Source of the DNA: a virus | IMG/VR virus record: IMGVR_UViG_3300030380_003487 | Span: 1-23,157 of that record | DNA: 23,157 nt | Strand: one strand, 5' to 3' | Shown here: in pieces, positions 1 through 9,092 of the stretch | How positions within the stretch are numbered: position 1 is the first letter of the stretch | How the letters are laid out: every line of letters begins with the position of its first letter | Program-made: the position numbers and the translations under genes | Notes under the pieces: model-generated | The model's input: the letters and a program-made list of their open reading frames with translations, nothing else | Database searches by the model: none | What the model was told of the DNA's origin: nothing

Positions 1-651
1 TTTAATAACTTCTTTTGTATAATTAGAAACTGATTTTGCAACTTCATCAAACGAATCATCCACACCTGTAAAGACATCAACTGTTTGTTTACCTGCTTCT
101 TTGACATCTGCCATTGCACCAGAAAAATCTCCCTCAAATACTTTTTTTATTGCAGATCCTAAAAAACCTAAAACCTCTAATGCTTGATTAAATCTATCTA
201 TAATTCCTTGCTTTATACTATTAGAAAAATCTTTTAAAGTTCCTAATGGGTCTTTAAATAATGCATCCATGAATTGTTTAACCTTATCAATATTTCCAAC
301 TAAAAGATTTACTAGGTCATTTAAAACAAGTGAAACTGCTTCTGTTGCAACTGCAAAGAAATCCACCACTTTCTGATTCTCACTTAACACTTCTTTAAAC
401 TTATTAAATATGCTAACAGCAATTCCAACAATTCCACCAATAGCCAATGCACCTTTTAAAGTTTTTCCCAAACTAAAAGAAGATTTTGATGCATCTTTTG
501 CACCCTTTTCTAATGCAGACATTCCTGCTTCTGCATCTTGACTTGTTGTTTCTAAATTTTTATTCAGATCAACAATAGTTTTATTAACATCTTCAATATT
601 TTTAGTTGACTTTTTAGTGTCAGCTACTAATTCAAATTCTATCTTTTCCAT
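1..651 (-). CDS. Tail tape measure protein, N-terminal part (runs off window)
   Basis: The first 217 codons are present and the reading frame is open to the window edge. The protein begins MEKIEFELVADTKKSTKNIE, a predicted helical coiled coil, followed by a Gly/Ala-rich hydrophobic segment (about residues 70-83, GALAIGGIVGIAVS). Then comes a stretch with DPLGTLKDF, RFNQALEVLGF and FTGVDDSFD that I recognise from tape measure proteins of Bacteroidota phages. In that family the protein sets tail length and is threaded inside the tail tube. It follows the other tail genes and its start overlaps the end of a 47-codon gene by 13 nt. The identification rests on motif memory and position. The length cannot be judged because the 3' end is missing. 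Confidence 0.85.
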   Translation of the reverse strand, partial: MEKIEFELVADTKKSTKNIEDVNKTIVDLNKNLETTSQDAEAGMSALEKGAKDASKSSFSLGKTLKGALAIGGIVGIAVSIFNKFKEVLSENQKVVDFFAVATEAVSLVLNDLVNLLVGNIDKVKQFMDALFKDPLGTLKDFSNSIKQGIIDRFNQALEVLGFLGSAIKKVFEGDFSGAMADVKEAGKQTVDVFTGVDDSFDEVAKSVSNYTKEVIK

Positions 652-782
652 TTTATTTCTGTTTTAAATTGTTTCCATCCCTCTCTTATAGTAGTGGGCA
701 GTTTATGTTTACCCTGAGCAATTTTAATATTCTCAGTTTCTCCTTTTGCTATTTGTAATGCTCCTATAATTATTTTTATCAT
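639..782 (-). CDS. Small protein upstream of tape measure (47 aa)
   Basis: This short reading frame starts with ATG at 782 and ends with TAG at 639. Its start codon overlaps the stop of the 718-residue tail protein as ATGA, and its end overlaps the tape measure start by 13 nt. That is the same coupling seen between most genes here, so I call it real. The product starts MIKIIIGALQIAKGE and ends in a basic tail (FKTEIKWKR). I do not recognise a family. Its place directly before the tape measure gene is where other phages put chaperone-type genes, but here the likely chaperone lies elsewhere (4979-5721), so no function is assigned. Confidence 0.7.
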   Translation of the reverse strand: MIKIIIGALQIAKGETENIKIAQGKHKLPTTIREGWKQFKTEIKWKR

Positions 783-2935
783 GATACTACATTTAAGAGT
801 TCTATATCACTTTTGCCATTTGTTAAATTTGTTTTAAGTGAGTTGATTATGTATTCTTGTGAGCCAATACTCACTCTGTCATTCATCTTTAAATTATAAA
901 TAATTTTTAATGGTAAATAAGCTGTGATTTTTGTTATTCTTCTTTGTTCAGCAAATACATCATTTATGTATGTGCTATAAAATTGGTCAAATAAGTTTTC
1001 TGTAAATGCGAAGTTTCTTGTGAATTCATTTCTTTCTGTTATAAAATGTATGTTCTTTTTGCTTGACCCAGAGCTTATTGCTAAACTATTTGATGGAATA
1101 TTGTAAGCAGTTTGCTGTGTTTTGTTTCCTGATTCAAAACCAAATGAAATTGATGTTGCACTTGTTTGATGAATAGCATAAAAAATTAAAGGCAAACCAT
1201 GTGTAGCATTTCTGCTTTGGTCTACACTCCATCCCCATTGTATATCAGTAGCACCACCACCTGAAGCATTAAATAATCTTTCAAATTGCATATGTTCAAA
1301 TGGTATCTCAACTTTATAAGAATCGCCTGGTGCTGTATATTTAGCTTGTTGTAGTGAATAACTATTTGATCCCCATTCTCTATTATCTAATTGTTGATAT
1401 TGAACTGCTAAAAATGTTTTTAATCCTTTATATTGAAATCCAACTTCTTTAAAAGGCAAAGCTACATTAACCTGACTTTTTGTTTTATCTATATATTCAT
1501 CTAATGCCCATGCTTCTGTTCCAACAACAACCCCTTTTCCTGAAGCATAAAAGCTGTCTAGTGTTTGCACTTTTATTGTTCCATTATCTTCAACAAATGC
1601 AGTTAAATTAAACATCTTAAATAAAGCAGTTAAGAAATCAATAATTTTCATTTTAGGAATTTGTTGAGTTATAGTAAACTCAAATATGGTGCTTGTACTA
1701 AATAATGACCCACTTCTATATTCATCTGTATATCCACCTAGTGGTCCACCTGATGGACTTTCGCCACCAAGAAAACCTTCAATCTCCCATCTAATATTTC
1801 CACTATTAAAAGTAGTAGTTGATGATGATGCAATAAATATTGTATAAGTACCTGCTGTAAGTGGAAAATCTGATTGTGTGATTGTTTGTTGATTTTGCAC
1901 ATCATTTTTCTGAGCAACTAATTGAGATCCCCTATAAACTTGAATGTTATAAAGATTAGTTTGATTAGGAATAAATGTTATTGTATGTGCTAAAATATTA
2001 TTAGGACTTGTAACCAAATCGCCAATGACTGTGATTGCACCATTCTGCACAGATGTTTGCTGACCTAATGTTGAAGATGAAGAAAATATAGGAAAATTTG
2101 TTAGTTGCTTATATTGTAATGATACTTGTTCAGCAGGTTCAACATCTCCTTTTTTTCTGTGTAACCACATATAAAGATTGTAATATGCTAAATTAGTTGG
2201 ATTGAAAAAATCATTTGAAAAAACTATGCTACTAGGATATCCATTTGCTGTTGTATATTTGGCTTGTATTTCTGTTATAATCCTATGTAATCTTAAAGCA
2301 TATTTTAATTGTTTCCAATAAACCTGATTAGCAGAAGAACTATTTACCCAACGAACATTTCCATTTCCTTGTGCTGCTCCTGAGCTGTTATAAAATAATT
2401 GATCTGTATGTGTTATAAGTGGAACAATTAAATCTCCATTAGTTCCATTAGTTGATGGGTTTTGAACTAAATAATATCTTATTAATGAATCTGTATAATT
2501 CTCATTTAAATCATCCAAAGCACCTAAGTCTTGTAATTCATCATCCTCTAATAATGTTTTGAGGTTTACTGTTTCCCCAAAAAATGTAATCTTATAAGCA
2601 TGTAATTTATTATTTTTTAATTCTGTTCCATCTAATCTGACTGACCCTTTTTTGAAAGGAATATTATTTAATTCTATTTTAGCAGGAACTCTATTCCTCG
2701 CATCAAATGTATTTGTAATATTAAAATTATTATAATGTCTAAATAATTTGTTGTTTTCTTTGGATGCAGGTATTGTAAATGTTTGTGTAAAGTCAGTAAA
2801 TATTTTAGCTAGATCTCTAACATTCTGAATTGATTGAGTTAATGAAACTGTTTCATCTTTAAATAAATCAACCCTTTGATATGTTACTTGATTAGGATCA
2901 TAATTGCTATCTATATATAATTGTAATGTCTGCAT
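779..2935 (-). CDS. Large tail/baseplate structural protein (718 aa)
   Basis: A 718-residue protein in the tail module. The N-terminal part (residues about 20-75) contains DLFKDETVSLTQSIQNVRD and FTIPASKENNKLFRHY, a pattern I recall from uncharacterised structural proteins of Bacteroidota phages. The middle is rich in Ser, Thr, Asn and Gly as in beta-structured virion proteins. Near residue 430 is a segment (KMKIIDFLTALFKMFNLTAF, then DNGTIKVQTL) and the end carries MNDRVSIGSQEYIINSLKTN, both resembling baseplate-hub or distal-tail domains. ATG at 2935 overlaps the TAA of the upstream gene by one base, and its TGA overlaps the next ATG. Baseplate hub is an inference from position and fold-like patterns. 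There is no signal peptide or membrane segment. Confidence 0.7.
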   Translation of the reverse strand: MQTLQLYIDSNYDPNQVTYQRVDLFKDETVSLTQSIQNVRDLAKIFTDFTQTFTIPASKENNKLFRHYNNFNITNTFDARNRVPAKIELNNIPFKKGSVRLDGTELKNNKLHAYKITFFGETVNLKTLLEDDELQDLGALDDLNENYTDSLIRYYLVQNPSTNGTNGDLIVPLITHTDQLFYNSSGAAQGNGNVRWVNSSSANQVYWKQLKYALRLHRIITEIQAKYTTANGYPSSIVFSNDFFNPTNLAYYNLYMWLHRKKGDVEPAEQVSLQYKQLTNFPIFSSSSTLGQQTSVQNGAITVIGDLVTSPNNILAHTITFIPNQTNLYNIQVYRGSQLVAQKNDVQNQQTITQSDFPLTAGTYTIFIASSSTTTFNSGNIRWEIEGFLGGESPSGGPLGGYTDEYRSGSLFSTSTIFEFTITQQIPKMKIIDFLTALFKMFNLTAFVEDNGTIKVQTLDSFYASGKGVVVGTEAWALDEYIDKTKSQVNVALPFKEVGFQYKGLKTFLAVQYQQLDNREWGSNSYSLQQAKYTAPGDSYKVEIPFEHMQFERLFNASGGGATDIQWGWSVDQSRNATHGLPLIFYAIHQTSATSISFGFESGNKTQQTAYNIPSNSLAISSGSSKKNIHFITERNEFTRNFAFTENLFDQFYSTYINDVFAEQRRITKITAYLPLKIIYNLKMNDRVSIGSQEYIINSLKTNLTNGKSDIELLNVVS

Positions 2936-3927
2936 TATCTAACATTATTTATGTAATCAGCAGCTAGTTCAAAATCCATTGTATATTCAATTAATCTATC
3001 ATTCAATTTTGTTTTTTTTCTAAATTGAGATGTCTTAATTGTTACAGGTCTAACCACATCACTATTTGGGTTTGTTTGTGAATCATTAGAAATCCAAATT
3101 TGTTCTGATAATAATAATTCTTCAAACCATTGATTACACCACTCTGGATAATAACCTGAGCTTAATGTCATTGTCTGATTAGCTGTTGTATTAAATGGAG
3201 TTACCATATGATTGCTTGTAACATAGCGACCATCTTCTGTTATTATACTTCTTTTATATGTCTCTGATTTTTTATTTATTGTTTCTGTGTCTTTTAAGAA
3301 AAACCATAGTTCTTGTATTACACCATATTTATTTACAAATCTGACTTTATTTCCAAAATTATACTTTGTACAATTTACCCTCACAATGTTTAATTTTATT
3401 CCTGCATTTGTTCCTGTAGCTTCTGTGTCAGTTGATCCAAATTTATAATATTCTGCTGTACCATTTGATTTTATTAATGGAACATAACCCTGATATCCTG
3501 TTGGTATAAAAACATAAAATCTCTCATTAACACTTGTTGAGTCTGGGTCAAAAGAAATTAGCCATGTTGGTGCAGATTTTACTACAGTAGGGCTTGATCC
3601 CTCCATAAATGTCCCATATCCATCATACCCTGTATCAGCAAATGCTGCTGAATTTAAAGCTGAGCCACTTCCATCAGTTGAAGCATGAGAGCTTAAAGCT
3701 ATCACGATAGATATTGTTGGGCTAAGTGGTGTAGCTGAATATGCAATGTTTATATAATCTCTACATAATTCTGCAATTTCAAAACCAACTACTTGACTTC
3801 CTGAGCATTCTTTTACTATTGTATATCTTAATGTTCCATCAATAGTTATTGTCATTAAAGCACTATTAGCATTTGCATGTGATGTAAATGATTTATATTG
3901 TGGGCTTCTTAATACTATATTTGCCAT
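2935..3927 (-). CDS. Tail structural protein of unknown role (330 aa)
   Basis: A 330-residue, Ser/Thr/Asn-rich protein that begins MANIVLRSPQYKSFTSHANA. It lacks a signal peptide and membrane segments. Repeated short beta-type stretches (ALMTITIDGTLRYTI, VKIRFVNKYG-like text around residues 195-205) fit a virion protein. It lies between the HK97 gp10-like gene (3 nt gap) and the 718-residue tail protein (1 nt overlap), so it is very likely part of the tail, perhaps a tube or distal-tail component. I cannot name a family. A major tail tube protein should exist somewhere in this module and this is one candidate, though its length is greater than usual for a tube protein. Confidence 0.6.
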   Translation of the reverse strand: MANIVLRSPQYKSFTSHANANSALMTITIDGTLRYTIVKECSGSQVVGFEIAELCRDYINIAYSATPLSPTISIVIALSSHASTDGSGSALNSAAFADTGYDGYGTFMEGSSPTVVKSAPTWLISFDPDSTSVNERFYVFIPTGYQGYVPLIKSNGTAEYYKFGSTDTEATGTNAGIKLNIVRVNCTKYNFGNKVRFVNKYGVIQELWFFLKDTETINKKSETYKRSIITEDGRYVTSNHMVTPFNTTANQTMTLSSGYYPEWCNQWFEELLLSEQIWISNDSQTNPNSDVVRPVTIKTSQFRKKTKLNDRLIEYTMDFELAADYINNVR

Positions 3928-3930
3928 CTT

Positions 3931-4512
3931 CTATTTTTTTATTCCTAATATTAATTGTCTTTCCACATCTATTTTAAATGCTTCTAGAATCTCACTAGGT
4001 AGTTTTTTAAATTCTTTTCTAAATGCTTTTGAGAAAAATAAGGTTGGTTTTAATCCCTGAGCAAATATGCTTTTCTGAATCCAGAAAGCTATTGATCTAT
4101 AATTTCCTTTTTGAAATCTACCTTTTTCATCTCTAAATCTTATGTTTTTCATTTTTGCCCATTTCATTAATGGTTGCATGGGTGGCATTTTTGAAGTATA
4201 TGAAAATTTATTTTTGATTCCATTAGCACCTGTAAATAAAGAATTTGTTGATCTTCCTTTCTGTTTTCCTTTATGTCTTTTGGTTGTTGCCAAACTAGGT
4301 TTAGCACCCCAAACACCTGCATCTTGAAACATCCCATAATCCTCCATTAAGAAATCTAATAGAAAAGCATTTTGTTCTATTGTTAAATCACTTTTGAGAG
4401 ATTTATATAAACTCCCTTTTGCCATGTCATTTTTTTGCAGATTTATTTTTGCTGAATTAATGACTGCTTCTCCAAACTTTTCTAATGCTTCTTTGACTTC
4501 TTTATATTCCAT
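3931..4512 (-). CDS. HK97 gp10-like tail completion/neck protein (193 aa)
   Basis: The product resembles the HK97 gp10-like family, which acts at the head-tail connector or tail completion step. Supporting features are a helical N-terminus (VKEALEKFGEAVINSAKINL), the segment DYGMFQDAGVWGAKPS, where gp10-like proteins have a tyrosine-phe-aspartate-glycine turn, and the motif KMPPMQPLMKWAKMKNIR followed by FWIQKSIFAQGLKPTLFF. A longer frame begins at a TTG at 4518, but I chose the ATG at 4512 because it overlaps the upstream TGA as TGATG, the coupling used throughout the window. It is basic overall. Confidence is good for the family and moderate for the exact role. Confidence 0.7.
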   Translation of the reverse strand: MEYKEVKEALEKFGEAVINSAKINLQKNDMAKGSLYKSLKSDLTIEQNAFLLDFLMEDYGMFQDAGVWGAKPSLATTKRHKGKQKGRSTNSLFTGANGIKNKFSYTSKMPPMQPLMKWAKMKNIRFRDEKGRFQKGNYRSIAFWIQKSIFAQGLKPTLFFSKAFRKEFKKLPSEILEAFKIDVERQLILGIKK

Positions 4513-4982
4513 CAGCAAATTGTTATATCATTATAAATTACAATTTCTAAATCAGCAGTCCATCCTGCTAATTCATTCTCAAACCTATCATAAAAAGGTG
4601 TGCAATTAGGATCTCCAACTAATTGATATTTATCTCTATGCAAATCTCCTTTTCTTAATGTCATGATTAGTTTATTTAATACAGCTAATTGAGTATTCAA
4701 AACATCTTGCTCATTATTATTTCCAACAAATAAATCTGTAGTTTCTAATTTACTTCTGCTGACAATATCCATAGCTAATATGCTAATATTAAAAGATAAT
4801 GTTTGTTCTGAATCTGTAACACTATTTATAATTATGTGGCTTAGTGGAAATATATCTTGCTTTTGTAAATTAACATTACTCAAGTTTCCTGTTGTAACTG
4901 TATTGACATCAATATTATCCAACAGAGCATTCTTAATTGTTTCTGTTAATTGATAAAAACCTCTTATTCCCTGATTGCTCAT
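4512..4982 (-). CDS. Tail terminator-like protein (156 aa)
   Basis: A 156-residue protein lying between the tail chaperone and the gp10-like gene, the usual place for a tail terminator that caps the tail tube. The sequence has an N-terminal helix (GFYQLTETIKNALLDN), a central beta pattern (TLSFNISILAMDIVS), an amphipathic helix (TQLAVLNKLIMTLRKGD) and a C-terminal strand (GWTADLEIVIYNDITIC). This matches the alpha-beta layout of gpU-like tail terminators in a general way. Its ATG at 4982 overlaps the TGA that ends the -1 frame of the chaperone (ATGA), which links its translation to the frameshifted product. Family assignment is an inference from layout, not a motif match. Confidence 0.55.
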   Translation of the reverse strand: MSNQGIRGFYQLTETIKNALLDNIDVNTVTTGNLSNVNLQKQDIFPLSHIIINSVTDSEQTLSFNISILAMDIVSRSKLETTDLFVGNNNEQDVLNTQLAVLNKLIMTLRKGDLHRDKYQLVGDPNCTPFYDRFENELAGWTADLEIVIYNDITIC

Positions 4983-5721
4983 TTTTTAAATTTTTTCTTT
5001 ATTTGATTTGCTTCTAATTCGTTTTTTTCTTTTAAATATTCTAACATCATAAAACATTCATGAGCCTTTAATTCAGTGATATTTTCAAATCTTCTAATAT
5101 CCCCTTTAGCGAGTGAGAAAATTGCTTGATACCATCCCCATTTAGCATTAAATCCTGCTGCTGCTGATAAGGTATTTTTTTGATCTCCCTCTCCAAATAG
5201 CGATTCATAACTACTGACAAGTCTTTCCCTAAATGATAGAAAAAAAAAACTGATGAAATTACTGCATCCAAAGGCATATCTAATAACAGATCCTTTGTAT
5301 TGACATCATATTCTTTGATTGTATATCTCTCTCCTTTTTTTTCTTTTATGGGTCTATATAAGACATTCATTGCTGTATGAATATTTTCCCAATCTCCTAA
5401 ATAAGTATCAAGATCAATATATTCTCCAAAACTCATTTCATCTAAATCAGGAATAAATCCATATTCTATTCCATTCATACTGAATTTAGTAACCAGATTA
5501 GGTTTCTGTGTAAACATTTCTCCTAGTATTGCTGTTACTTTGTCTGCATCATTAAATTTGATTTTTAAAACATTCTCATGGCTGACCTCACAAAATATTT
5601 CAATCATTTTAATTTGTAAAAATCTTTCATCTACATCTTCTGTATTAAGTTTCACAAACTTTTGATATTTTCTTAGAGTGATTTCTGAGAGTTTATTAGG
5701 AATATTTAATCTTGCTTTCAT
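4979..5721 (-). CDS. Tail assembly chaperone, -1 frameshift extension (about 247 aa)
   Basis: The -1 frame is open from about 5310 to a TGA at 4981-4979. After a slip on the T tract the product would continue LSFRERLVSSYESLFGEGDQ, then AAGFNAKWGWYQAIFSLAKG, DIRRFENITELKAHE and LEYLKEKNELEANQIKKKF. The segment KWGWYQ-(I/S)-LAKGDI looks like real protein, whereas no ATG occurs in this frame before residue 50 of it. The frame ends with TGA overlapping the next ATG (ATGA), leaving no gap, while the zero frame would leave an untranslated 85-nt gap. This is the layout of the lambda G/GT pair. A slip at CAAAAAA (about 5187-5193) is an alternative site giving the same C-terminus. Confidence 0.65.
5068..5721 (-). 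CDS. Tail assembly chaperone, zero-frame product (217 aa)
   Basis: This 217-residue protein starts the tail module. It begins MKARLNIPNKLSEITLRKYQ, with a helix and strand layout typical of a family I recall from Bacteroidota phages (FGEYIDLDTYLGDWENIHTA, then VLYRPI). Near residues 158-161 the code is GTT TTT TTT TTC (ten T in a row). The zero-frame end reads LNGDGIKQFSHSLKGILEDL. In tailed phages such proteins bind the tape measure during tail assembly and are made in two forms by ribosomal frameshifting. A second open frame overlaps its end (see 4979-5721). The start at 5721 is 3 nt from a perfect palindrome. Moderate to good confidence. Confidence 0.7.
   Translation of the reverse strand: MKARLNIPNKLSEITLRKYQKFVKLNTEDVDERFLQIKMIEIFCEVSHENVLKIKFNDADKVTAILGEMFTQKPNLVTKFSMNGIEYGFIPDLDEMSFGEYIDLDTYLGDWENIHTAMNVLYRPIKEKKGERYTIKEYDVNTKDLLLDMPLDAVISSVFFFYHLGKDLSVVMNRYLEREIKKIPYQQQQDLMLNGDGIKQFSHSLKGILEDLKISLN
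5239..5250 (-). other. Probable -1 ribosomal slippery site (GT10C)
   Basis: On the coding strand the codons GTT TTT TTT TTC contain canonical X XXY YYZ heptamers, T TTT TTT and T TTT TTC. A one-base backward slip moves ribosomes into the long -1 frame described at 4979-5721. I did not find an obvious strong stem-loop directly downstream by eye. Because the run is ten T long, transcriptional slippage is also possible. Confidence 0.55.
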
Positions 5722-5724
5722 AAT

Positions 5725-5740
5725 GTTATACTTGTATAAC
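5725..5740. promoter_or_regulatory. Perfect 7-bp palindrome upstream of tail operon
   Basis: GTTATACTTGTATAAC consists of two perfect 7-base arms around a 2-base centre. It ends 3 nt upstream of the ATG at 5721 and lies just after a terminator, so it sits in the leader of the tail operon. It could be a protein operator or an RNA hairpin covering the start region. On the minus strand the sequence at 5751-5760 (TAAAATTTTG) is a poor match to a Bacteroidota -7 element, so the tail promoter is uncertain. Confidence 0.45.
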
Positions 5741-5762
5741 GAAAAATAAGCAAAATTTTACT

Positions 5763-5804
5763 AAAAAAAAAGGAGGCAAAGATCCTAAGACCTTTAAACC
5801 TCCT
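5763..5804 (-). terminator. Rho-independent terminator before tail operon
   Basis: In the minus direction AGGAGG (5804-5799) pairs with CCTCCT (5776-5771), with a further AAAG/CTTT pairing inside, followed by a run of nine T. It lies 22 nt downstream of the 91-residue gene ending at 5826 and separates the small-gene unit from the tail module. Confidence 0.8.
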
Positions 5805-5825
5805 ATCCAAACCACAAATTAATAT

Positions 5826-6101
5826 TTATAGATGGTATTCGTTTTTTTCTACATCCTCCCAAACTGCTTCATTAATTGAATCAAAAATTTGACCAGATAA
5901 AATATGCTGAACATATAAATCATGACTGCATTTGATTTCCTCTCCATCCTCTGATGTATAAGATATTAAATTAACTGAAATAATTTCTATATTATCAGGA
6001 TCAGGAGGTTGCATATAATCTCCTGCAAATGTAGATTTTTCATATATGTAATTAACTACAAATAAAAACTCCTCCCATTCATATTCCATTTCTTTTTCCA
6101 T
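5826..6101 (-). CDS. Hypothetical acidic protein (91 aa)
   Basis: A strongly acidic 91-residue protein (MEKEMEYEWEEFLFVVNYIY at the start, EAVWEDVEKNEYHL at the end). I recognise no family. It has no membrane segment or signal peptide, and one cysteine. It is the last gene of a four-gene unit between the structured leader at 6739-6825 and the terminator at 5763-5804, and starts 1 nt after the stop of the preceding gene (TAATATG). High negative charge and small size are common in phage proteins that inhibit host factors or mimic DNA, but nothing here proves that. Confidence 0.65.
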   Translation of the reverse strand: MEKEMEYEWEEFLFVVNYIYEKSTFAGDYMQPPDPDNIEIISVNLISYTSEDGEEIKCSHDLYVQHILSGQIFDSINEAVWEDVEKNEYHL

Positions 6102-6102
6102 A

Positions 6103-6378
6103 TTATAAATCTTTTAAATTATTATATTTTTCTTTTAACTCTCTCAATTCTAACATCACTTTATTTTTATCATAGCGATAATCACTAGATGCTCTTTTAT
6201 ATGCTTCTAGATCATGTTGCAAACTAATAATATAATGAGTAGTTCTGACTAAGACATTCGCTAAACTTTGTAGATCCTTATTGTCTGGTTTTTTTTCTAA
6301 CCAATTTTTTACAAGTGTTGATGCTAAAAGCATATCAGCATAATATTCTAAATCTTTGAGGTTTTGGATTTTGTCCAT
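6103..6378 (-). CDS. Hypothetical helical protein (91 aa)
   Basis: The product looks entirely helical, with heptad-like Leu spacing in MDKIQNLKDLEYYADMLLAS and at the end (VMLELRELKEKYNNLKDL), consistent with a coiled coil. I do not recognise a family. It begins with ATG at 6378, 11 nt after the stop of the upstream gene, and its stop is 1 nt from the next start. As part of the small-gene unit that sits where head genes would be expected, a role in packaging or morphogenesis is possible but unsupported. Confidence 0.65.
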   Translation of the reverse strand: MDKIQNLKDLEYYADMLLASTLVKNWLEKKPDNKDLQSLANVLVRTTHYIISLQHDLEAYKRASSDYRYDKNKVMLELRELKEKYNNLKDL

Positions 6379-6389
6379 AATTAAATTTA

Positions 6390-6605
6390 TTACTTTATTA
6401 AATCTAAATCAAGCTGATCAGCAACATAATTAATATGTTTTTGAGTTGTTCCTGACCAATATCCTAATTGTAATAATTTATCTCCTGCAATCATAGCAAC
6501 ATGAGTATTATAAGACCAAACTTCATTTCCTCTTATTGATAGATTTTGTTTATACTTATCTAATGTGTAGATATTATTGGATGTTTGTAAGTATACTTTT
6601 GACAT
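6390..6605 (-). CDS. Small conserved-type phage protein (71 aa)
   Basis: A 71-residue product starting MSKVYLQTSNNIYTLDKYKQ and containing VWSYNTHVAMIAG and LGYWSGTTQKHINYVADQ. I recall this SYNT-V-I and TT-KHINYVA pattern from small proteins of many phages and plasmids, without a known function. A longer frame starts at 6653, but it would run deep into the upstream gene. The ATG at 6605 gives a 32-nt overlap and starts right where the familiar pattern begins, so I prefer it. No membrane segment or cysteines. Confidence 0.65.
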   Translation of the reverse strand: MSKVYLQTSNNIYTLDKYKQNLSIRGNEVWSYNTHVAMIAGDKLLQLGYWSGTTQKHINYVADQLDLDLIK

Positions 6606-6723
6606 TATATAATTTGTTTTGTAGTTTATTAAATTCTTCTTTTGAACTAGCATATCTCATAGCTAATTCTAATATTCTGATTTCATCTCTAAGATCATCA
6701 GCTTGTGTTCTAAATTGTTTCAT
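6574..6723 (-). CDS. Small helical protein (49 aa), first gene after structured leader
   Basis: This short frame starts with ATG at 6723 and ends with TAA at 6574. The product, beginning MKQFRTQADDLRDEIRILEL, is a charged, probably coiled-coil helix. It is the first coding region after the promoter at 6830-6859 and the candidate structured leader at 6739-6825, with only 15 nt between the leader and the start codon. Any regulation by the leader would therefore act first on this gene. The upstream context is A-rich (AAATAAAATATG) without a Shine-Dalgarno, as usual in Bacteroidota. I do not recognise a family. Confidence 0.65.
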   Translation of the reverse strand: MKQFRTQADDLRDEIRILELAMRYASSKEEFNKLQNKLYNVKSILTNIQ

Positions 6724-6738
6724 ATTTTATTTATAAAA

Positions 6739-6825
6739 TCAATAAGGGATCTTGGTTATGATAGAGCGACATCTAATTTTTACAGGGCTCGCACCTGACA
6801 TCTCCTAAACTTTCCCCCTCATTGA
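6739..6825 (-). ncRNA. Candidate structured 5' leader RNA (about 87 nt)
   Basis: Read on the minus strand, TCAATGAGGG (6825-6816) pairs with CCCTTATTGA (6748-6739) to give a 10-bp closing stem with one G-U pair. Inside is a hairpin CAGG-TGCGAGC-CCTG (about 6797-6783). Its loop sequence GAGC can pair with GCTC at about 6766-6763, which would form a pseudoknot. The element GATGTC occurs twice (about 6803-6798 and 6774-6769). The region is far richer in G and C than its flanks. The predicted transcription start of the promoter at 6830-6859 falls at the base of the closing stem, so this would be the very 5' end of the mRNA. I do not recognise a known riboswitch or ribozyme. Folding is by eye only. 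Confidence 0.5.
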
Positions 6826-6829
6826 TATT

Positions 6830-6859
6830 CAAATATAACACTTATTTAGTTATAAACAA
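6830..6859 (-). promoter_or_regulatory. Bacteroidota-type promoter (TTG, 19 nt, TATATTTG)
   Basis: On the minus strand TTG (6859-6857, inside a T run) is followed after exactly 19 nt by TATATTTG (6837-6830). This is a full match to the TAnnTTTG -7 element with a -33 TTG element known from Bacteroidota. Transcription should begin near 6825-6823, directly at the structured leader, just after the large terminase stop at 6879. Confidence 0.7.
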
Positions 6860-6878
6860 AAAATTTAATAAGTATTTT

Positions 6879-8042
6879 TTAGTGAATAGAATATTTTCCA
6901 AAATTTGGTCTAGATAATATGGAGTAAGTCGCATATCTACATGGATCAATAATATGGTTATGTAAATCCTCTGCTATATTAATCATCTTTCCAGATTTAT
7001 CTTCTTTCCATTTATAATTCCTAAATTCCTGAATTGCATTATTTGAATTACTTGTTATATGAATCTTATATCTTTTTAATAAATCAATTCCTGCATTAAC
7101 TGAATCTCTCCCCTTTATACTTGGATGAATATTATGACCCATTTTTCTCAATTCAGAAATTAATCTTGGCTCTGCTGAATCAGCATATATTGGATTGCTT
7201 AACAAATTCTCTGATCTTAGAAATTGATTAATATCATTAGTAGTCATTTGAGTTCTATATAGATGCTCATGAATATAAAGATTATGATCTAATGTATAAA
7301 CAGAAACCAAAGTTGTAGGATCATGGGTATATCCAAAGTCCATGCCATATGCAATCAGTTTTGCATCACTAGGAACTTTATTAATCTCAACATATCTAAA
7401 AATAGTTCTTCTAGAACTTGACCTCTCTCCTAATCCATATATTTGCCAATATTGTTCATCAGTATCTTTTAATCTTTCTATCTCCTCTCTAATTGAATCT
7501 TCTAAAAAAGGATTATCTAAATAAGTTGTTTTAAAAAACTGACAATCTTCTCTAGGTATTACTTTGTCATATATCCAATGATATTCATCTGATGGATTAA
7601 AGTCAATTATTATTCTTTCCTGAGTTCTAAATATCAGCTGTTGCCAATCCTCCCAATATAATTCATTCGCTTCGTTGATAAAAAGCAAATCTCTTTTTCG
7701 CCCTCTGATTTTCTGGCTCTGATCCAAGCTAGTAAATTCAACTAGATTCCCAAATAGATTATATTCTGAATTGGATTTATTATGATATTCCTCTCTGTAT
7801 ATTTGATGGTCTCTGAGGATGTGTAAAAAATCCCTGAGAACAGTTGCTCTTAAACTTGGAAATGTTTTTCTGCATATAGTAACAATCTTTCCAGAATGAT
7901 TAGTGCAATATTTAAAAATGATATATAAAAGAATATTATAAGTTTTGCCTGATCTTGTACCCCCCTGCTCAACTATAATTTTTGAATCACTATTCTCTAA
8001 GTGCTTATAAACTATATTAGTCTGTATCTTCTGTTTTATCAA
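6879..8042 (-). CDS. Terminase large subunit (387 aa)
   Basis: The DNA packaging motor. The ATPase has a clear Walker A motif GGTRSGKT at residues 27-34, a Walker B region DLLFINEANE at 118-127 and a coupling-type segment IIDFNPSDEYHW. The nuclease domain has acidic residues in MDFGYTHDP (D235), IYADSA (D288) and HIIDPCRYA (D366), as expected for an RNase H-like nuclease of the Terminase 3/6 group. The length of 387 is slightly short but has all motifs. The start is TTG at 8042, because no ATG precedes the Walker A motif. It overlaps the small subunit by 26 nt. Unusually, no portal gene follows it. Confidence 0.95.
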   Translation of the reverse strand: MIKQKIQTNIVYKHLENSDSKIIVEQGGTRSGKTYNILLYIIFKYCTNHSGKIVTICRKTFPSLRATVLRDFLHILRDHQIYREEYHNKSNSEYNLFGNLVEFTSLDQSQKIRGRKRDLLFINEANELYWEDWQQLIFRTQERIIIDFNPSDEYHWIYDKVIPREDCQFFKTTYLDNPFLEDSIREEIERLKDTDEQYWQIYGLGERSSSRRTIFRYVEINKVPSDAKLIAYGMDFGYTHDPTTLVSVYTLDHNLYIHEHLYRTQMTTNDINQFLRSENLLSNPIYADSAEPRLISELRKMGHNIHPSIKGRDSVNAGIDLLKRYKIHITSNSNNAIQEFRNYKWKEDKSGKMINIAEDLHNHIIDPCRYATYSILSRPNFGKYSIH

Positions 8043-8376
8043 TTATCTCAATTTGAAAGTTAGTAGGCATTCCATCTGCTCCTGTAATCTCCTGTCTTTC
8101 TATGTAACCTCTTTTCTTGCCTTTGGTTTTTAGGTAGAAAATAGTTGCTGCTGTTGAATTGTCTGCTATCTGTCTATGTAATTGACTTTCTACAAAATCT
8201 AATGCGATATTATCAATGTCCTGAACTTTCTGAGCAAAATCATCATCTTCTTTCATCCACTTATAAAAAGTGCTTCTAGGTACATCTGCTTTCTTGCAAG
8301 CCATATTGACCACCCCTAAACTCTGCTCTAATGCTTTTAAAACTGATTCCTTTTTTATGTGTCTACTTTTGTCCAT
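8017..8376 (-). CDS. Terminase small subunit (119 aa)
   Basis: A 119-residue protein with an N-terminal helix-turn-helix (KESVLKALEQSLGVVNMACK, then KADVPRSTFYKWMKED, residues about 8-47), a helical oligomerisation part (FVESQLHRQIADNSTAATIF) and the segment YLKTKGKKRGYIERQE that is typical of phage small terminases. It recognises the packaging start site on phage DNA and hands it to the large subunit, whose gene overlaps its end. The start ATG at 8376 overlaps the glycosyltransferase stop by 1 nt (TAATG). The classification is secure because of both motif and position. Confidence 0.88.
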   Translation of the reverse strand: MDKSRHIKKESVLKALEQSLGVVNMACKKADVPRSTFYKWMKEDDDFAQKVQDIDNIALDFVESQLHRQIADNSTAATIFYLKTKGKKRGYIERQEITGADGMPTNFQIEIIDKTEDTD

Positions 8377-9092
8377 TATAGATTTAATTTTATTGTAAAT
8401 TCATTTGCTTTTCTTTTGACCTGAGAAATCATTGATGGATATAATTTGATCAAATCTTTAATCGCTTTTCTTTCTATTTGAATTGTTCTATAATCTTTGC
8501 AACCTCCATCTTGATCCCAATGGTCATTCTCCCAATGTAAATATCTAATTCCTAGAATCCCCCCTTTGTCTTTTATATGTCTTAAACAAATTTCATAATC
8601 TTCTTTTACTACAAAATTTTCATCAAAATAATATTCTCCATCATTTATAATTCCCATCAAAGATGCAGTCACATATGTTCTGGTTAATATAGGTTTGTAT
8701 GGGTATGATCCTCTAGGGCTTGATTCTGTTCTTGTTCCCCAAATCTTATATCCCATTTGCTCACATAAATCAAAATATTTTAAAAATTCCTCCATCCAAA
8801 AACCCTGATCTTTTATTTGTACTTTTCTTGTATTTCTTTTATCTAAAAAATTATAGCCAACATTCTTAGCATCATCATCTATCATGACCACCCACTTCTC
8901 CTTGCTATTTTTCAAGATCCAATTTCTAGTAGGTGTAATTCCCCTGACCTCTTTTGGAATACAAACTATATTTTTAACTAATCCTTTATATTGATGATAC
9001 TCACTTTCTGGAATAAAAAAAGTAGCATCAGGTAATATTTTATTTGTGCTAGTTAATCCTGCTCTGCCTTTACTTGGTACTGCTATTAACAT
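8376..9092 (-). CDS. TET-associated-type glycosyltransferase, GT-A fold (238 aa)
   Basis: The N-terminus MLIAVPSKGRAG, followed by TFFIPESEYHQY, GITPTRNWILKNS and VVMIDDDAKNVGY (D72-D74, the metal-binding DXD-like site of a GT-A glycosyltransferase), matches the family called TET-associated glycosyltransferases (TAGT). In phages described by comparative genomics these lie beside TET/JBP dioxygenases and ParB-like genes and are proposed to glycosylate hydroxymethylated DNA bases. Here it is next to a ParB-like gene and the terminase genes, but no TET/JBP gene is in the window. The C-terminal part has VKEDYEICLRHI and GCKDYRTIQIERKA. The family call is from memory. Substrate is not known. It could act on DNA, or on another substrate. 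Confidence 0.75.
   Translation of the reverse strand: MLIAVPSKGRAGLTSTNKILPDATFFIPESEYHQYKGLVKNIVCIPKEVRGITPTRNWILKNSKEKWVVMIDDDAKNVGYNFLDKRNTRKVQIKDQGFWMEEFLKYFDLCEQMGYKIWGTRTESSPRGSYPYKPILTRTYVTASLMGIINDGEYYFDENFVVKEDYEICLRHIKDKGGILGIRYLHWENDHWDQDGGCKDYRTIQIERKAIKDLIKLYPSMISQVKRKANEFTIKLNL

Follow-up and report, generated by a model that had tools for sequence, protein, structure and literature searches.

In the phage HK022, the put RNAs are structured RNAs of ~70 nt that belong to early transcripts and act in cis without a dedicated protein, and one of them, putL, lies just behind its promoter (PMC9378689). In Flavobacteriaceae, a structured RNA motif named Flavo-1 has been described in 5' transcribed regions (PMC9723704). 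RNA-based control in marine Bacteroidota phages is little known. Here we describe an RNA element of ~89 nt (6738-6826, minus strand) in a window of 23,157 bases, which is the whole stretch of DNA analysed, an IMG/VR virus record that we read as an uncultured marine Bacteroidota phage. Judging from its homologues in eight other viral records and their covariance-model scores, the element seems to belong to a small, new family of RNAs in phages.

Promoter and predicted transcription start

The minus strand of the window carries terS, terL (6879-8042), a glycosyltransferase-like gene, nuclease and recombination genes, a holin, an endolysin and a tail-fibre-like gene, and the closest cultured relatives of its TerL, at ~35% identity, belong mostly to Flavobacterium phages. 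The stretch 8376-9092 (minus strand), beside the terminase genes, matches a PHROG for beta-glucosyl-HMC-alpha-glucosyltransferase and possibly has to do with DNA modification.

Ahead of the element lies a Bacteroidota sigma-A promoter (6830-6860, minus strand), made up of TTTG (6860-6857), a 19-nt spacer and TATATTTG (6837-6830). The match is exact, as the initial annotation had it when it described a full-match promoter feeding a compact leader, and the full pattern is found twice in the window versus 0.42 times expected by shuffling. Because the flavobacterial -7 box spans -12 to -5 in Flavobacterium psychrophilum (PMC9723704), we place the predicted transcription start (+1) at 6825 (minus strand), the first or second base of the closing stem, P1; a start at the base of this stem had already been proposed. 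Start codons in the fetched phage loci support the offset: among 25 deduplicated ATGs at most 15 nt from a TAnnTTT(G/A) box, 12 follow it at a distance of exactly 4 nt and each of the other offsets is seen 0-3 times, as for leaderless mRNAs that start at the A of the ATG. This peak, which includes L046, L089, L091, L099, L107, L130, L163, L171 and others, suggests that leaderless mRNAs are frequent in Bacteroidota phages.

A TAnnTTTG promoter stands directly ahead of the element in every copy, and P1 begins at +1 or +2. For comparable promoters in the same loci the leader measures 29 nt in the median, consistent with the median of 24 bp in F. psychrophilum (PMC9723704), and the median fold energy is 0, whereas the leader with the element measures ~100 nt and folds with -17 to -27 kcal/mol, which is unusual. 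Long closing stems behind promoters show no general enrichment (7 observed versus 15-22 in swapped controls). As a separate observation, 10 of 58 promoters (two terminators included) are immediately followed by a small hairpin whose loop is AANNAA, where 1.9 would be expected, a trend that weakens in a broader set. The six-base loops seen are AATTAA, AATGAA, AACGAA and AATAAA, on stems that differ, and the loci are the window itself (~14848-14810, minus strand), L009, L015, L023, L043, L047, L049 and L051.

Distribution of the element

The element was found in the window and in eight other IMG/VR records, which provide six distinct sequences from two phage lineages; between these lineages the element is ~76-82% identical. 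A TerL search returned 80 related loci, among which only L002, L004, L005 and L013 carry it, and pattern scans added L085. A diverged copy turned up by chance in L167 when strong promoters of the same kind were scanned for, after which L211 and L212 were found with a relaxed core pattern. The element adjoins terL only in the window lineage. In L013 and L085 it comes after another gene and a terminator, and in L167, L211 and L212 it stands between a nuclease-like gene (our own reading; Pfam gave no match) and a 5'-3' exonuclease region that comes after it. Because it occurs in these other gene contexts, we reject the link with the terminase, and with it the role as a packaging RNA that had been suggested. 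The predicted protein that adjoins the element's exonuclease gene in L167 (5218-6417) consists of an ATPase-like half and a GNAT acetyltransferase half.

A covariance model (R1) scores 105-117 bits on the known copies and at most 20 bits on everything else in ~1.3 Mb plus 38 whole virus records. The matches of 15-20 bits (L221, L222, L223 and L224) are at chance level, the one in L221 lying within apparent coding sequence, and were rejected. We also took as chance a match in Bacteriovorax (L086), made of the core string alone with no surrounding element, and a similarity of the element core to terS DNA (L007 and relatives), which falls in the score range of unrelated loci. No homologue was found in the cultured phages or plasmids searched, Bacteroidota host genomes scanned for the exact core string gave a single chance match, and we found no description of the element in the open-access literature.

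Conserved structure

P1 closes the element with a 5' arm, AUCAAUGAGGGG (6815-6826, minus strand), and a 3' arm, UCCCUUAUUGAU (6738-6749, minus strand). The 10-bp stem described initially (6825-6816 with 6748-6739) is fully paired and, with G-U included, reaches 12 pairs (6826-6815 with 6749-6738). Across the family P1 measures 9-12 bp, with 93% of cells paired: L013 and L212 each lack one pair (U.U and A.C, respectively), and in L167 and L211 the second pair from the outside, U-A, is missing. Compensation of changes in the closing stem was a test set by the initial annotation, and three P1 pairs are changed on both sides. Inside P1, the hairpin P2 is formed by CAGG (6794-6797, minus strand) and CCUG (6783-6786, minus strand), which become CGGG and CCCG in L212, a two-sided change. 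The CAGG/CCTG hairpin reported earlier is real, but its loop (6787-6793, minus strand) has the seven nucleotides UGCGAGC and not the six of GCGAGC.

Over the six distinct sequences of our alignment (A2, effective number 1.19), 94.8% of the cells in P1 and P2 are paired, and the four pairs with two-sided changes, three in P1 and one in P2, go from U-A to C-G, from G-C to A-U (twice) and from A-U to G-C. The covariation score is 0.233, against 0.153 +/- 0.024 in shuffles and reached by 1 of 500, figures that are not probabilities because the sequences are related. If the partner is slid by 1-3 columns, pairing falls to 32-58%, and RNAalifold run unprompted on A2 returns P1, P2 and a weak inner helix. 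We regard the P1/P2 structure as well supported by these comparisons, and the eight further records together with the two-sided pair changes place the element, at the level of sequence, beyond chance. The fold of the window region alone is weak support (z = -2.4 to -2.7, with equally good folds in 3 of 200 and in 13 of 1000 shuffles). The region is GC-rich relative to its flanks, as originally pointed out (~38% versus 20-30%); the GATGTC repeat mentioned along with this occurs twice in the window, but neither copy is present in L167 or L211. The best inner helices of the window, GCGA/UCGC and AUG/CAU, were rejected, as L004 breaks both. A candidate third helix, UAGG/YCUA, would join columns 24-27 to columns 66-69; its pairing reaches 92%, and all its changes are one-sided.

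The consensus of the T-loop motif is UNCRANY closed by G-C or C-G, in which position 4 may be any purine and position 7 any pyrimidine. The P2 heptaloop (UGCRAGY in the family) agrees with this sequence consensus: it is found as UGCGAGC, UGCAAGC and UGCAAGU, varying only at positions 4 and 7, and its closing pair is G-C in 6 of 6 distinct sequences. The same G-to-A change that fits a T-loop breaks the pseudoknot previously proposed for the loop, as the pairs between columns 41 and 67 (GAGC/GCUC) and between columns 41 and 63 (GCGA/UCGC) are A.C in L004, L167, L211 and L212. The single strand UAAAAAUUAGAU (6771-6782, minus strand) is identical in all six distinct sequences.

Conservation in this part of the element could also reflect a short leader peptide from a 20-codon frame (in the window, MSGASPVKIRCRSIITKIPY), selected either alone or as a translation-dependent attenuator. 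Its frame is open in 6 of 6 sequences, with GASPVKIR kept and a possible start (ATG, GTG or TTG) always present, and from column 35 on 7 of the 11 variable columns are third codon positions. These third-position changes, however, fall on the two T-loop positions that are free to vary and on the two-sided P2 pair, and P1 pairing is kept where the end of the peptide changes. Neither the start codon nor the C-terminus is conserved, the frame of L167 and L211 contains a 1-nt indel, in L211 the next gene is reached before any stop, and tblastn in phages gave no match. We hold a selected peptide to be improbable. An insertion without function, neutral or in decay, that passed between phages not long ago would agree with the small number of carriers and with the differing presence and absence among sister phages; yet two lineages that are ~76-82% identical have retained P1 and P2 by changing both partners of pairs, and have the promoter spacing in common as well, which makes this explanation extremely improbable.

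Downstream genes and exchange of leaders

Behind the stem, and outside it, a U run and an A-rich spacer (6724-6737, minus strand) lead to the start codon of a 49-aa gene (MKQFRTQADDL...; 6574-6723, minus strand), an open frame with no PHROG or Pfam match. A small gene had been placed 15 nt behind the element; it is indeed there, with its ATG at 6723, and we count the gap from the stem as 14 nt. L167 and L211 likewise have an A-rich start region of ordinary type directly after the element, with the start codon outside the stem. The genes that come next are unrelated: the window lineage has the 49-aa gene, L167 and L211 have one of 51 aa, and L212 has a 29-aa peptide ~125 nt away. This last interval (L212:7032-7165) has no annotated gene before the peptide, which is membrane-like, and holds GTATCGGAAATAAC, resembling a stretch within the next gene.

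Relatives with the same gene order were originally expected to carry the element. In L003 and L089 (98% TerL identity) the 49-aa gene sits at the start site itself, predicted to be leaderless, without the element, and in L007 and L091 the gene is present and the element absent. The expectation fails for L003, L089 and L007, but their lack of the element marks it as optional, not as unreal; by this comparison it appears dispensable for the gene behind it. L014 has the promoter and the downstream gene family of L013 with a different structured leader of ~100 nt (2900-3020), closed by UAUAAUUGA and UCAAUUAUA, whose core was found by exact search in no other viral record. The position thus looks, from these sequences, like a site where leaders are exchanged. 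Compared with L013, the window shows 97.8% identity in the element, 82.1% in terL and 76.4% in the next gene. The backbone of L004 is closer to the window (91.9% in terL), and its element has diverged further (93.3%). This pattern fits exchange plus constraint.

The U run suggests a different explanation, namely that the element is transcribed from its own promoter as an independent small RNA of ~95 nt, which ends at the U run and acts in trans on the phage or its host, the gene behind it being reached by read-through only. At least four U stand directly at the foot of P1 in all copies (6 of 6 distinct sequences), whereas TTTT occurs in only 3 of 61 comparable short leaders; the unrelated downstream genes and the ~125 nt without a gene in L212 point in the same direction. 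Against it, the P1 foot is A-U-rich, unlike the phages' own terminator with a G-C stem and T7 (L013), the U run of the window is short and interrupted (UUUAUAAA after P1), the loop of P1 measures ~65 nt, and the terminator scanner makes no call. Antisense targets in the window neither clearly beat those of shuffled elements (best 31 versus at most 29 in ten shuffles) nor are conserved, the matched stretch being altered in L004. We consider a small RNA somewhat unlikely, and the conserved U after P1 keeps it in play.

Proposed function

The reading that we prefer, and to which we would give about an even chance, is that the element forms, together with its promoter, a portable cassette of marine Bacteroidota phages, a new family of 5'-terminal RNA that would act in cis on its own transcript. 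Comparison of the loci brings out its placement at the predicted start site, P1, P2, its independence of the following gene and its optional character; the action in cis we infer. Transcription would start at the foot of the 9-12 bp P1 that closes the RNA, and within P1 the transcript would present the P2 hairpin, with its T-loop-type loop, and the long invariant single strand. The folded 5' end might then engage RNA polymerase during elongation, in the manner of HK022 put RNA, or alternatively cap and protect the mRNA, while the start codon, 14 nt beyond the stem, would stay open. For the T-loop we would expect either docking on the conserved strand or binding of a factor from the host or the phage.

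As the start codon lies outside the fold, simple occlusion is unlikely. With unrelated genes behind the element, control of a specific gene is less plausible than a general effect on transcription elongation or on the lifetime of the mRNA, or than a separate RNA. A pattern scan of the minus strand over 1-9000 found no terminator for an antiterminator to pass, and the absence of a gene within ~125 nt of the element in L212 counts against a leader.

A ligand- or protein-sensing attenuator of riboswitch type, with the interior as aptamer and P1 plus the U run as switch, would account for the closed P1, the T-loop hairpin and the invariant interior bases, which resemble the architecture of an aptamer. 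Its T-loop string GGUGCRAGYCC is, we presume, similar to L4 of the cobalamin riboswitches (RF00174 and relatives). No riboswitch of Rfam was matched with E up to 10, though, the downstream genes have no pathway in common, and we see no alternative expression platform, the start codon being outside the fold; we judge such an attenuator unlikely.

More specifically, the cassette that we favour may represent a class of gene-independent 5'-terminal RNAs carried by phages, which acts on the host RNA polymerase in a put-like manner or on a host factor through the T-loop; we advance this only tentatively, as possible and not as probable. With its covariation support, a predicted start, and natural pairs with and without the element before the same gene, the function is directly testable by reporter. 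If put-like, the element would modify the polymerase by RNA alone in phages that are not lambdoid.

Comparison with known systems

The view of the initial annotation that the element is no known tRNA or riboswitch holds. Rfam 15 at the gathering cut-off matched no family in the window, with E up to 10 the element regions of the window, L212 and L167 gave chance-level matches far below the cut-off, and ARAGORN found no tRNA or tmRNA in the window. The cobalamin riboswitches differ from the element also in that its downstream genes have no recognised link to cobalamin. Flavo-1 is likewise a structured RNA of 5' transcribed regions, whereas the element matches no Rfam family and is known from phage contigs only. 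The small 5'-terminal hairpins of related phages (L047, L009 and L015) begin, like the element, right behind the same promoters, but they are 20-30 nt long with an AANNAA loop and no inner domain, and are weakly enriched.

The closest likeness is to HK022 putL and putR: in both cases a structured RNA forms part of a phage transcript, close behind the promoter for putL and for the element, and the action, predicted for the element, is in cis on any gene that follows. Put RNAs have two stem-loops, whereas in the element a T-loop hairpin is enclosed by a single long stem, and the host phyla differ; put-type antitermination would be an analogy. We do not file the element as a put RNA; by sequence and predicted structure, it belongs with the structured leader RNAs of phages, a known kind, and within these we class it as a new family.
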